DNA of 25,790 nt. Source: a virus. The notes below the pieces were generated by a model. That model saw only the letters and a list, made by a program, of their open reading frames with translations. It did not search any database and had not been told where the DNA came from. Below, in pieces: positions 13,530-18,654 of this stretch. The translations under genes were made by a program, and so were the position numbers. The number at the start of each line of letters is the position of its first letter. Position 1 is the first letter of the stretch. The DNA is taken from IMG/VR virus record IMGVR_UViG_3300035126_000545, positions 1-25,790 of that record, one strand, 5' to 3'.

Positions 13530-13542
13530 ATAAAAATTGATG

Positions 13543-13573
13543 TGAGGGGATGGAAGATAATTCTATCCCCTCA
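13543..13573 (+). promoter_or_regulatory. Twelve-pair hairpin before the GHKL gene
   Basis: TGAGGGGATGGA pairs with TCTATCCCCTCA (one G-U) around a seven-base loop, with no T-tract after it. It is GC-richer than its surroundings and lies 26 bases before ATG 13599. It could be an RNA-binding site, mRNA stabiliser or processing site. Confidence 0.6.
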
Positions 13574-13598
13574 TGTCGTTAATCAAGAAAGAAAAATT

Positions 13599-15056
13599 AT
13601 GAAATATATTAAAGTAACAAATAGTGCAAATAATGTAAATCGTCTTAAACTTGAGAAACTTGGTTTTTCTACAAAGCGAGATGATGTAAATACAATTGGT
13701 CAATTTGGTTCTGGTATTAAGTTTGCTCCAATTGCTGCTGCTCGAAAAGGTATTGAGTTTATATTTGTTGGTCAAGATGATAAAGGCCCATATACTTTAG
13801 AGTATGTCATTCGAGAAGAAGAAGATATTTCATCAATCTTCTATAAGTATGAAGATTATGAGAAGCCATCTTCTTTTACTGCTGAAGCAGGAATTTTATC
13901 TTGGGAGTCTGATTTTCAGATTTATCGTGAAGTAATTGCTAATGCAATCGACGAGGCTAAGATTTCTGGAACTGAATGGAATGCGGAAATTGTTGATGTT
14001 GAAAAGATTATCCCGGTTGAAGGTGAGTTTTCTGTTTATCTATCAGCAACTGAATCTCTATCACATATTCATGATAATTTTGATAAGTATTTCTCTGTTA
14101 ATAGAAATCCAATCTTCATTGATTCTTCTGGAAATAAAATCTATGAACCCATTGATCCAAATGTATTCAGAGTTTATTCTAAAGGCGTTCTTGTATTTTC
14201 AGCAGACAATACTTTTAAATCATACGCAAGAGAGCAAAGTCTGCCCGGATTCTTTGATTATGAATTAGATTACAATTTAGAATTAAACGAAGAACGAACT
14301 GTCAGTAATACTTTCCAAATGAATAATTCTGTTGTATCTTTGCTTTCAAAAGCTATGGATAGCAATATTATGAAAGCTGTTTTAGATAATCTCATCAATT
14401 CAAGCAGCTTAAACAATTATTATGAGAATCAACACATCTCAGAATATTCTTGGAGTTCATATTCGTATTTACAAGATAAAGATCAATTCTTTGACAATTT
14501 TATTGAGGTCTTCCCTGAAGGTATTCTATTAAGTGCTAAAGAAGCAAATGTAAATATTATTGAATCAACAAGAGTTCGTGGTTATAATCCAATTGTAATT
14601 CAACATGATGGTATTTTTAGCTTTTTGAAAAACATTGGTGCTCCAACATACAATAGTATTCTTGGTGAATATTTCAAATATGATGTAACTAAGGATCTAA
14701 GTTTGTATCCAACAATCGTAAGTTCAATGGCCATCATTAATGATATCTATCCAGAATTTGTTGAAGAAAATGATGGAATTGGGGTTTACTTTGGTGATGA
14801 TGAAAGAATTCTTGCTGTAACAACAAATATTCCTTTTGAAAACGAAACGGAATACACTAAGAAAATTCTTGTAAATCATTCATTTGCTGATGTTGCAAAT
14901 ATTCCACAAATGATTTCTACTCTTGTTCATGAATGGGATCATAAGAAAAGTGGAATTGGTGATGGTGATTCTATGGGTAGAGAATTTCGTAGTCTTGCTG
15001 ATGAAAAAATCGGTTATCTGATTTATGAACTCTGGAAGGCGAAGAAGAAAAAATAG
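13599..15056 (+). CDS. Putative permuted GHKL ATPase with C-terminal HEWDH motif
   Basis: 485 residues; the frame is open to 13542 but that part is the hairpin, so 13599 is chosen. Residues 22-51 read GFSTKRDD...IGQFGSGIKFAPIAAARKG, close to the glycine-rich lid (G2) of GHKL ATPases such as Hsp90, MutL and Morc. An N-box-like EVIANAIDEA follows at 111-120. In ordinary GHKL proteins the N-box comes first, so this order looks permuted. Near the end HEWDH at 444-448 matches the HExxH zinc-protease motif, followed by GIGDGDSMGREF and ADEKIG. Either motif may be degenerate. It could be an ATP-gated protease-like takeover or defence-related protein. No relative can be named with certainty. Confidence 0.7.
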   Translation: MKYIKVTNSANNVNRLKLEKLGFSTKRDDVNTIGQFGSGIKFAPIAAARKGIEFIFVGQDDKGPYTLEYVIREEEDISSIFYKYEDYEKPSSFTAEAGILSWESDFQIYREVIANAIDEAKISGTEWNAEIVDVEKIIPVEGEFSVYLSATESLSHIHDNFDKYFSVNRNPIFIDSSGNKIYEPIDPNVFRVYSKGVLVFSADNTFKSYAREQSLPGFFDYELDYNLELNEERTVSNTFQMNNSVVSLLSKAMDSNIMKAVLDNLINSSSLNNYYENQHISEYSWSSYSYLQDKDQFFDNFIEVFPEGILLSAKEANVNIIESTRVRGYNPIVIQHDGIFSFLKNIGAPTYNSILGEYFKYDVTKDLSLYPTIVSSMAIINDIYPEFVEENDGIGVYFGDDERILAVTTNIPFENETEYTKKILVNHSFADVANIPQMISTLVHEWDHKKSGIGDGDSMGREFRSLADEKIGYLIYELWKAKKKK

Positions 15057-16216: not shown

Positions 16217-16813
16217 ATGGGATATTATGTAAACACAACAGAAAATGTAGAATTTTTTCTACCAAAAGAAAACATTGATAGCGTTTATCAAAAGATGTGC
16301 GAACTAAATGACTTTGACGATTTAAAGCGTGGAGGAATGTATGGTTCAAACAATGACCCGGTTGAAGGAGAACGATATCGCAGAGATAAATGGTTCTCTT
16401 GGATGTCTCCTAACTATCCAGAAACTTGTAAGGATATGTTTGAGATTCTTCAAGAACTTGGGTTTTACTGGAATCTCGATGAAGAAGGAAATGTAATTAA
16501 CATTGGTTATGATTACAACAAGACAGGTAATGAAGAGTATTTCTTATGCTGCTTTGCTGGATTTGTTGCAGATGGATCAGAAATTGAATTCAAAGGTGAA
16601 GACGAATCTTATTGGAAATTCGTATTCAAGAATGGGAAAATGACTCGATATGATGGCGAAGTCGAAATTAAATACTATCTTAAGAATTCAGAAGAATACG
16701 AATTTGGCAAGCCAACAAATGCTGATGTTCAAGCAGAAATTTGGAGAAAGAACTTTTATGAAGATCTTAAGAAGAACAAAGATCTCGAATCAAAAGTAAT
16801 TGGTGAGCTTTAA
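16217..16813 (+). CDS. Conserved actinophage-type protein (198 aa)
   Basis: The product follows a pattern I recall from widespread actinophage proteins of unknown function: a strand-helix start (MGYYVNTTENVEFFLP), then DDLKRGG near 34-40, WFSWMSPNYPETC near 59-71, GFYWNLDEEGN near 83-93, a DYNKTGNEEYFL segment, and FVADGSEIEFKGED near 116-129. The family looks single-domain and soluble. An SD-like AAGGAT lies about 10 bases upstream. It sits between two tRNA genes. Confidence 0.85.
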   Translation: MGYYVNTTENVEFFLPKENIDSVYQKMCELNDFDDLKRGGMYGSNNDPVEGERYRRDKWFSWMSPNYPETCKDMFEILQELGFYWNLDEEGNVINIGYDYNKTGNEEYFLCCFAGFVADGSEIEFKGEDESYWKFVFKNGKMTRYDGEVEIKYYLKNSEEYEFGKPTNADVQAEIWRKNFYEDLKKNKDLESKVIGEL

Positions 16814-17019: not shown

Positions 17020-17382
17020 ATGAGGATTAAACCATTTGAAGAGCATAAAGATCAGTTATTTACTGATTATGCTATGCAACTTTTTAATGCTCATTGTTCA
17101 GATAATAGCCATGAGATGATAAAATTCCTTGTGGATTCTCTTGAAGAAGAGGCTGAAGATAATCCTGCATTTTTGCCGGGCCTTGTCTTTGGCTGTATGG
17201 TTCATATGTTAATGATGACTCAGATTATTTCTTTAGAAAGAGATGTTCCTATTAGTGAAGCTACTGCTTCATATGTTTCTATGTATCAGAGTAATAGAAA
17301 GAATCTTGCTAAGATGTTGGGAAATAGACCCGATTACGCAAAAGAATTGATAACCAAACTGTCTGAAGAAGACTTCAAATAA
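17020..17382 (+). CDS. Unknown helical protein (120 aa)
   Basis: ATG 17020 with AAAGG seven bases upstream is preferred; ATG 17002 overlaps the TATAAT box. The product is all-helical, with a central Met-rich hydrophobic helix (LVFGCMVHMLMMTQII) flanked by charged helices. No motif recognised. It lies between tRNA-Lys and tRNA-Ile. Confidence 0.75.
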   Translation: MRIKPFEEHKDQLFTDYAMQLFNAHCSDNSHEMIKFLVDSLEEEAEDNPAFLPGLVFGCMVHMLMMTQIISLERDVPISEATASYVSMYQSNRKNLAKMLGNRPDYAKELITKLSEEDFK

Positions 17383-17403
17383 ACTTTAGTTAAAATCTAA
17401 TAA

Positions 17404-17477
17404 GCCGAATGGTCCGAACGGTTTGACGGAGAAAACCTTATAAGTTTTTTGAATAGGTTCAATTCCTATATTCGGCA
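17404..17477 (+). tRNA. tRNA-Ile (anticodon UAU)
   Basis: Acceptor GCCGAAT/ATTCGGC is perfect, D arm TCCG/CGGA, anticodon stem AAAAC/GTTTT with loop CTTATAA, giving anticodon UAU, and T arm ATAGG/CCTAT. It would read AUA directly, without the lysidine modification most bacteria need for their CAU-anticodon Ile tRNA. Position 8 is G instead of the usual U. No encoded CCA. Confidence 0.85.
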
Positions 17478-17494
17478 CTTAAACCATTATTTGA

Positions 17495-17500
17495 TATAAT
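17495..17500 (+). promoter_or_regulatory. Extended -10 promoter (TGA-TATAAT)
   Basis: TATAAT preceded by TGA fits an extended -10. It sits inside a perfect eight-pair palindrome (ACCATTAT/ATAATGGT, 17483-17503), which might be an operator. Transcription from about 17507 would give the Rpf-like gene a ~177-nt leader. Confidence 0.6.
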
Positions 17501-17506
17501 GGTACT

Positions 17507-17683
17507 TACATTTTTTATCACTGGAGGTGATGCTTATTGAAATAACCTGTGAAACAAGTAGCATTAAAAGATTGATGCAGTGATCTTGTTTCGCAACCTT
17601 AGCAAAATGCTAATACGGTCTGTATAAAAAGATTTGTAGGTCTTATTTATCTTCCGTAAAACCAATAGTTTTAAGGAGCGAAA
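17507..17683 (+). ncRNA. Structured leader with candidate pseudoknot
   Basis: P1 is ATCACTG (17517-17523) with CAGTGAT (17578-17584). P2 is TGTGAAACAAG (17548-17558) with CTTGTTTCGCA (17585-17595), 11 pairs with one wobble. P1 and P2 cross, and their 3' strands are contiguous, the geometry of an H-type pseudoknot with stacked helices. Two hairpins follow: TTAGCA/TGCTAA with an AAA loop (17599-17613), and TACGG/CCGTA around ATAAAAAGA/TCTT-A-TTTAT (17614-17658). Then an SD and ATG 17684. It has the form of a riboswitch or regulatory leader; no known class recognised. Confidence 0.55.
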
Positions 17684-18394
17684 ATGAAAACTAATCATAA
17701 AATAAAATCTACATTACTGTCAACAATTATGCTTTCAACAGTAATGTTAGTATCAGAAGCAAAGGCTTCTAAAAATGAAAGCGTAACAATAACTTCATCA
17801 AATAATATTGCTGTATTAATTGATGAGTATCCAAAGTATCTAGAAAATGGTAAGCCTAAAGCATTGGATATCTATTGGGATAGAATGGCCCAATGCGAAA
17901 CAGGTGGAGATTGGAAGAACGGTGGAAGATGGTCTGGAGGTTTAGGAATATATCAACAGACTTGGGAAGGTTTTGGTGGAAGACAATTTGCAGCAAAACC
18001 TCATTTAGCAACAAGACAAGAGCAAATAGTTATTGCTAATAGAATATCAACACAAGGGTATCAAACAAAGAATACTTTTAGAACTCTTAAGGATAAACAA
18101 AACAATAAACCTCATTTTCAAAATCCAGTTGGATTTGGAGGATGGGGTTGTAAAAAATCTGTTGGTAATCCGGTGCTTGTTACTAAACCACCTTATAAGA
18201 TATACTTTTGGAAATTTCCTGTTGGAGAAAGAAGCCAAAGGGTAAGGAAACTTCAGCGTCTAATCGGTGTTGAAGCAGACGGTTATTATGGTGAATGGAC
18301 AAAAAAGAAACATCTTGCTTTTGTTAAAAAGTATAGGCAGTCCATTGAAGATGACCATAATAATTATTTAAGATCTAAAGGTTTGGTGCGCTAG
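17684..18394 (+). CDS. Secreted Rpf-like transglycosylase with peptidoglycan-binding domain
   Basis: 236 residues with AAGGAG seven bases before ATG. An N-terminal signal peptide (Lys-rich start, hydrophobic 10-23, SEAKA region) implies export. Residues ~63-160 match the resuscitation-promoting-factor-type lysozyme-like domain, which cleaves peptidoglycan: WDRMAQCETGGDW with catalytic Glu at 72, SGGLGIYQQTWEGFGG, and GWGC (Cys156), likely disulfide-bonded to C71. Residues ~185-215 form a PG_binding_1-like module (VRKLQRLIG...ADGYYGEWTKKKHLAFV). It may be a lysis enzyme or a mimic of host Rpf. No holin is evident next to it, though a tiny hydrophobic ORF lies at 16917. Expression may be set by the structured leader. 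Confidence 0.9.
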   Translation: MKTNHKIKSTLLSTIMLSTVMLVSEAKASKNESVTITSSNNIAVLIDEYPKYLENGKPKALDIYWDRMAQCETGGDWKNGGRWSGGLGIYQQTWEGFGGRQFAAKPHLATRQEQIVIANRISTQGYQTKNTFRTLKDKQNNKPHFQNPVGFGGWGCKKSVGNPVLVTKPPYKIYFWKFPVGERSQRVRKLQRLIGVEADGYYGEWTKKKHLAFVKKYRQSIEDDHNNYLRSKGLVR

Positions 18395-18524
18395 AAACCA
18401 AAGAGACACAGCAATGTCTATATTAACAATAGTTAATATCTAGCAATTAAATAGGGGTTTAGTTATTACCTCAAAACCCCGTATCTGGTATATGTGCGGG
18501 TAAAAATAACTAATATACCAATAA
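18395..18524 (+). ncRNA. Structured gene-free segment before tRNA-Arg
   Basis: Hairpin ATATTAAC/GTTAATAT at 18420-18439 is perfect. GGGGTTT/AAACCCC is at 18454-18480. TAGTTATT (18460-18467) can pair with AATAACTA (18505-18512), and TGGTATAT (18486-18493) with ATATACCA (18513-18520). The last two cross, with adjacent 3' strands, again pseudoknot geometry. The elements partly exclude each other. The segment ends five bases before tRNA-Arg, so a processing role is possible. Confidence 0.4.
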
Positions 18525-18596
18525 GCTTCTATAGTTAAATGGATATAACGAGGGACTTCTAATCCTTTATTCTAGGTTCGAATCCTAGTGGAAGCA
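18525..18596 (+). tRNA. tRNA-Arg (anticodon UCU)
   Basis: Acceptor GCTTCTA/TGGAAGC (wobble pair included), D arm GTTA/TAAC, anticodon stem AGGGA/TCCTT with loop CTTCTAA, giving anticodon UCU, and T arm CTAGG/CCTAG. It decodes AGA, the main Arg codon here. No encoded CCA. Confidence 0.95.
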
Positions 18597-18599
18597 CTA

Positions 18600-18654
18600 A
18601 GAGAATGGTTACGGTTAGGTCCTGGATATTACTAACTGTAGCCATTCTCTTTTT
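18600..18654 (+). terminator. Long-stem rho-independent terminator
   Basis: A 19-pair stem with wobbles, starting AGAGAATGG and ending CCATTCTCT, encloses a 13-base loop and is followed by TTTT. It ends the tRNA/Rpf region. Confidence 0.9.

Follow-up and report, generated by a model that had tools for sequence, protein, structure and literature searches.

A conserved structured RNA leader of phage lytic transglycosylase genes with a putative strand exchange over the Shine-Dalgarno region

In actinobacteria, the ydaO-yuaA c-di-AMP riboswitch is found upstream of rpf and of further genes for cell-wall hydrolases. Attenuators of the ermC type combine an upstream ribosome-binding site with mutually exclusive helices, one of which covers the downstream Shine-Dalgarno site. 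In phage T4, translation of the lysozyme gene e is limited by a hairpin at the ribosome-binding site, with a distinction between early and late transcripts. The 5ʹ UTR of M. tuberculosis rpfB contains an RNA attenuator, which was argued to keep an enzyme in check that could kill the cell by acting on its wall; this switch terminates transcription and occurs only in some pathogenic mycobacteria (PMC6009663). Stabilisers of the STAB-SD or polypurine type at mRNA 5ʹ ends were described in Bacillus and for mycobacterial katG (PMC2358910).

Here we analyzed a leader of 177 nt in a 25.8-kb viral contig with 33% G+C (the whole stretch of 25,790 nucleotides, called the window below). A preliminary description of this DNA had proposed a structured RNA in front of an Rpf-like gene, with an extended -10 promoter upstream. 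Across positions 17404-18597, the order was tRNA-Ile(TAT), promoter, leader, Rpf-type transglycosylase gene (PF06737), and tRNA-Arg (Table 1). The extended -10 element (TGATATAAT) was found about 7 nt ahead of the expected transcription start and is taken as the leader's own promoter; a TATAAT or TACAAT -10 was kept in all leaders, including those without tRNA-Ile. The tRNA genes of the window were scattered among small genes. The window also contained a WhiB gene, and its terminase was related to terminases of large Streptomyces phages. Judging by the WhiB gene and by the related phages, the host is probably an actinobacterium.

Table 1. Features of the leader and its flanks, in window coordinates
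Feature	Position	Strand	Remark
tRNA-Ile(TAT)	17404-17478	+	Upstream neighbour, conserved in most leaders of the group
Extended -10 promoter TGATATAAT	17492-17500	+	Transcript start expected at about 17507
Seven-pair helix, 5ʹ strand	17517-17523	+	Partner 17578-17584; not conserved
5ʹ box GGAGGUGAUG	17523-17532	+	Complementary to 16S rRNA 3ʹ end
Possible short upstream ORF MLIEITCETSSIKRLMQ	17530-17583	+	Putative
P1 helix, 5ʹ arm	17548-17558	+	Pairs with 17585-17595
Hairpin inside P1	17561-17578	+	GCA...UGC kept in 11/12 leaders
P1 helix, 3ʹ arm	17585-17595	+	Pairs with 17548-17558
Alternative pairing strand UUUCGC-AA-CCUUA	17589-17601	+	Overlaps P1 3ʹ arm
P2 hairpin UUAGC/GCUAA	17599-17613	+	Almost invariant; competes with CCUUA:UAAGG
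P3 hairpin, UUGUAG cap at 17634-17639	17615-17657	+	Stem covaries
Shine-Dalgarno region UAAGGAGCGAAA (UAAGG-A-GCGAAA)	17672-17683	+	Predicted to pair with 17589-17601 in the alternative state
Secreted Rpf-type transglycosylase, PF06737	17684-18394	+	Profile match to solved RpfB/RpfC/RpfE

Homologous leaders were found in 15 viral contigs by protein and DNA-pattern scans of IMG/VR. Every relative was a metagenomic contig, and the leaders represented only about five independent lineages (window/L002; L003; L021/L022/L070/L083; L030 and L077; L035/L087; L017). When proteins alone were scanned with the Rpf alignment, 12 relatives were obtained, all of which (12/12) were on leader-carrying contigs. 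The leader was more conserved than the coding sequence: when the window was compared with the remaining Rpf lineages, nucleotide identity was 77-80% in the leader versus 58-60% in the coding sequence. A covariance model found one strong copy per phage record. When built without L017, the model detected the L017 leader (33.7 bits, E 8.5e-5), a detection that is only partly independent because an exact 16-nt pattern from the 5ʹ box had been used to select L017. None of the isolated relatives (Gordonia Phendrix/GodonK, Streptomyces LukeCage, Actinomycetia phage DSL-LC01) was matched by the model, and the SLT gene of DSL-LC01 was without the leader. A gapped 5ʹ box/P1 pattern, applied to 84,980 genomes for host leaders, gave seven matches in unrelated bacteria, which were judged to be chance because of their scattered taxonomy. 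The majority of matches to a loose P2 pattern were likewise chance, lying in coding regions.

In L035/L087 and L017, the gene after the leader coded for an SLT-type secreted transglycosylase (PF01464) instead of Rpf. The PF01464 score was 33.5 bits for L017, above the cut-off, and 19.0 bits for L035, just under it. The SLT proteins of L035/L087 and L017 showed no significant similarity to Rpf, and those of L035 and L017 resembled each other (E 5e-5). The tRNA-Ile(TAT) upstream in L035, on the reverse strand, was identical to that of the window in 75 of 75 nt while the next gene was unrelated, which points to cassette exchange beside the tRNA. Because the same leader precedes Rpf-type and unrelated SLT-type genes, it behaves as a mobile regulatory module of enzymes that lyse the cell wall, retained while the transglycosylase genes are exchanged. 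The association of this module with lytic transglycosylases is shown by the sequence comparison.

Some further features of these contigs were recorded. Upstream of the tRNA/leader block, the gene at 16217-16813 had relatives among isolates only in Arthrobacter phages (phrog_38862), whereas the terminase pointed to large Streptomyces phages. A large protein was conserved with 44% identity between the window (13542-15056) and L017 (3366-5069); it carried a GHKL-ATPase-like stretch (FGSGIKFAPIAA) and, towards its C-terminus, a motif resembling HExxH (LVHEWDH), and no Pfam match was obtained. On the minus strand at 17694-17723, a strong promoter-like TTGACA-18-TATGAT was directed antisense into the leader; by eye it was absent from L003 and L021, and it was not conserved.

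The window and its relatives were searched against Rfam 15 at gathering and permissive thresholds, and nothing but tRNAs was found. The best sub-threshold matches (eukaryotic snoRNA and PreQ1 fragments) lay on the wrong strand or scored much lower than the cut-off. The ydaO-yuaA model (RF00379) gave no match at the gathering threshold or at E-values up to 5, in agreement with the earlier remark that the ydaO core was not visible in this leader.

The predicted fold of the leader was better than chance, with an MFE of -43.8 kcal/mol and a z of -3.1 (1 of 200 shuffles as good). The 11-pair helix with one wobble (U-G) that had been described, P1 here, was present in all homologous leaders found, and its inner pairs were never broken. 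Compensatory changes were observed at three pairs (GC/AU, AU/GC, and UA/AU). None of 500 shuffles matched P1 in covariation score or in paired percentage; one covariation alignment leans towards the P1 structure because it was fitted to the model, and a second alignment was not fitted. When the partner strand was slid, the paired fraction fell from 98% to 32-48%. P1 is well shown by this comparison of leaders. Two further hairpins had also been described, and both exist as P2 and P3, small hairpins being kept in the relatives. P2 is so nearly invariant that its covariation says nothing for or against it; P2 and the 5ʹ box are shown, from the alignment, as conserved features. The loop inside P1 varied in size and sequence among leaders. 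The sequence UUGUAG was present in every leader, in L035 and L017 carried by the hairpin inside P1 and not by P3; this loop might be a protein- or RNA-binding site. With a covarying P1, a fold beyond chance and no counterpart in Rfam, the leader does place a structured RNA before the Rpf-like gene.

The 3ʹ strand of P1 and the bases next to it (UUUCGCAACCUUA) were complementary to the Shine-Dalgarno region of the gene itself (UAAGGAGCGAAA). Since positions 17589-17595 are common to P1 and to this sequestering helix, the two helices are mutually exclusive. The sequestering duplex, at -11.9 kcal/mol, was the strongest among 40 window genes tested. Across the remaining leaders, this strand ranked first or close to first among all partners for the Shine-Dalgarno region within the leader, and 0.4-7% of shuffles did equally well; L017 was the exception, with a duplex (-7.1) no better than shuffles. 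A three-way change was observed in L003, in which the shared C was replaced by U, and both its P1 partner and its Shine-Dalgarno-side partner were changed from G to A. The energies of P1 and the sequestering duplex co-varied, with P1 ahead by 2.4-3.8 kcal/mol, and by 5.7 in L017. When the 5ʹ arm of P1 was blocked in silico, the 3ʹ strand moved to the Shine-Dalgarno site with 7-9 expected pairs in 9 of 12 leaders, and moved only partially (2-3 expected pairs) in the window, L002, and L077. The block left the computed accessibility of the Shine-Dalgarno site nearly unchanged in the window and in L077, owing to a competing local hairpin. Covariation in the sequestering helix consisted of one doubly changed pair, which was equaled by 87 of 500 shuffles. 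We regard the strand exchange with the Shine-Dalgarno region as supported but unproven. No terminator-like site was found in 17380-18600; transcription attenuation was rejected on this ground, and the output of the leader would be translation.

The 5ʹ box (GGAGGUGAUG) lay near the expected 5ʹ end of the transcript and 20-24 nt before P1 in all leaders. It matched the complement of the 3ʹ end of 16S rRNA, beyond the usual core. With either strand considered, GGAGGTGA occurred once in the window, and so did GGAGCGAAA. An AUG or GUG followed the box at the same place in every leader. Four other lineages carried a seven-codon ORF whose end coincides with the P1 base; the upstream ORF of the L021 group consisted of a start and a stop, AUG UAG. 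Translation of the upstream ORF is doubtful because the start codon is only 2 nt from GGAGG. A conserved leader peptide was rejected, as the upstream ORF sequence was not conserved among leaders. We also considered whether the 5ʹ box holds a minimal ORF, UUG-NNN-UAA, but this failed on L030, L077, and L035. By analogy with known mRNAs, the 5ʹ box may instead be a 30S-binding stabiliser or a standby site.

The best explanation, in which we have moderate confidence, is that this is a cis-acting leader that switches translation on and off by strand exchange and governs the secreted peptidoglycan transglycosylase of the phage. An extended -10 promoter belonging to the leader would drive its transcription. 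In the ON state, P1 (GUGAAACAAG:CUUGUUUCGC) and P2 would hold the strand UUUCGCAACCUUA, and the Shine-Dalgarno site would be free. In the OFF state, UUUCGCAACCUUA would leave P1 and pair with UAAGGAGCGAAA, so that the Shine-Dalgarno site would be covered. We infer that the trigger is ribosome occupancy: most likely a ribosome or 30S subunit would sit on the 5ʹ box complementary to 16S rRNA or on the short ORF associated with it, and its footprint would reach the 5ʹ arm of P1 and melt P1. If so, enzyme output would follow the translation state of the infected cell. The timing of a cell-wall enzyme matters because, when mistimed, it would make the phage kill its factory early. A broader and more speculative view, which we think unlikely to hold in full, is that a 30S subunit or leader ribosome at the 5ʹ box would sense the translational state of the dying host, that the exchange between P1 and the Shine-Dalgarno region would time the lytic enzyme, and that the leader would be an RNA lysis timer, kept while the enzyme gene is swapped, of a new phage RNA family.

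The main rival retains the same Shine-Dalgarno exchange and changes its trigger: a small molecule, or a phage or host protein, would bind the invariant loops (UUGUAG, GCAACCUUAGC) and stabilise or break P1. The loop and joining sequences were conserved beyond the needs of pairing, and UUGUAG was kept even though its hairpin differs among leaders. Host rpf leaders also include ligand switches, namely ydaO, and the list extends to the M. tuberculosis rpfB attenuator (PMC6009663). However, known aptamers gave no match in Rfam at gathering and permissive thresholds, the loop within P1 is variable, and a compact conserved pocket was not apparent; we consider this rival unlikely.

The second rival dispenses with a switch. 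The 5ʹ box would be a 30S-binding mRNA stabiliser of the STAB-SD/polypurine type or a ribosome standby site, and P1-P3 would be protective or serve as spacing. The position of GGAGGUGAUG near the 5ʹ end, its extended 16S complement, its lack of a well-spaced start codon, and its uniqueness in the window are all consistent with this, and the fixed 20-24 nt to P1 would suit a seated 30S. Polypurine stabilisers also have precedents in Bacillus and in mycobacterial katG (PMC2358910). This reading is nevertheless improbable to us, because it leaves unexplained the complementarity between the P1 3ʹ strand and the Shine-Dalgarno region, the shared changes in L003, and the near invariance of CAACCUUAGC.

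The preliminary description had proposed an H-type pseudoknot, in which the 11-pair helix is crossed by a seven-pair helix. Both pairings were present in the window, and the 3ʹ strands of the two helices do adjoin, at 17584/17585. In the window, the seven pairs were perfect, with an energy of -9.3 kcal/mol that 2-3% of shuffles equaled, only weakly beyond chance, and the near-twins of the window shared the complementarity. The L021 group had GAUUACU/AGUAAUC with one compensatory change, only if its transcript begins about 2 nt upstream of the assumed start. In L003, L030, L077, L035, and L017, however, the crossing helix was absent or weak, with nothing above chance in the shuffle test; homologous leaders that lose a helix are what the preliminary description had named as counter-evidence. 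In the window, the 5ʹ strand of the crossing helix also pairs locally with the 5ʹ box (AUCAC/GUGAU). The crossing helix does not belong to the conserved architecture; the pseudoknot was rejected as a family trait, and an H-type pseudoknot RNA as first proposed is very improbable. Conservation at the DNA level or a purely coding constraint (through recent common descent, an operator, or a hidden ORF), with no RNA function, would fit the near-identical leaders of close relatives, but it is hardly credible, being contradicted by the compensatory changes of P1 across lineages, by a leader more conserved than its gene, and by the failure to find an ORF common to the leaders.

The translational strand-exchange reading can be compared with the described systems. 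Like T4 gene e, the leader belongs to a phage cell-wall enzyme and has predicted structure over the ribosome-binding site; unlike gene e, the phage leader itself contains both alternative partners. With the STAB-SD/polypurine stabilisers it shares an SD-like sequence near the 5ʹ end and apart from the start codon, but here a covarying helix and an anti-SD strand follow the 5ʹ box at a constant spacing. The ermC type is similar in its upstream ribosome-binding site, possible short ORF, and mutually exclusive helices, one of them over the Shine-Dalgarno site. It differs in that the phage leader peptide is not conserved, the start codon lies too near the SD, a drug-stalling motif is absent, and the gene that follows codes for a phage lytic enzyme. 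Like the M. tuberculosis rpfB switch, it is an RNA leader of an rpf gene, but the phage leader is without a terminator and is unrelated in sequence. Compared with ydaO-yuaA (RF00379), the phage leader has different helices, no terminator, and the Shine-Dalgarno site as its output; in both cases, a structured leader of one RNA class stands before Rpf/SLT-type hydrolases of different families. The leader is a new RNA outside Rfam that would work like the known leaders restraining cell-wall enzymes. If true, lytic enzymes would be controlled at the RNA level in phages of uncultivated actinobacteria, by a module that stays while Rpf and SLT are exchanged, and the phage leader would parallel the habit of the hosts to place RNA switches ahead of rpf genes.
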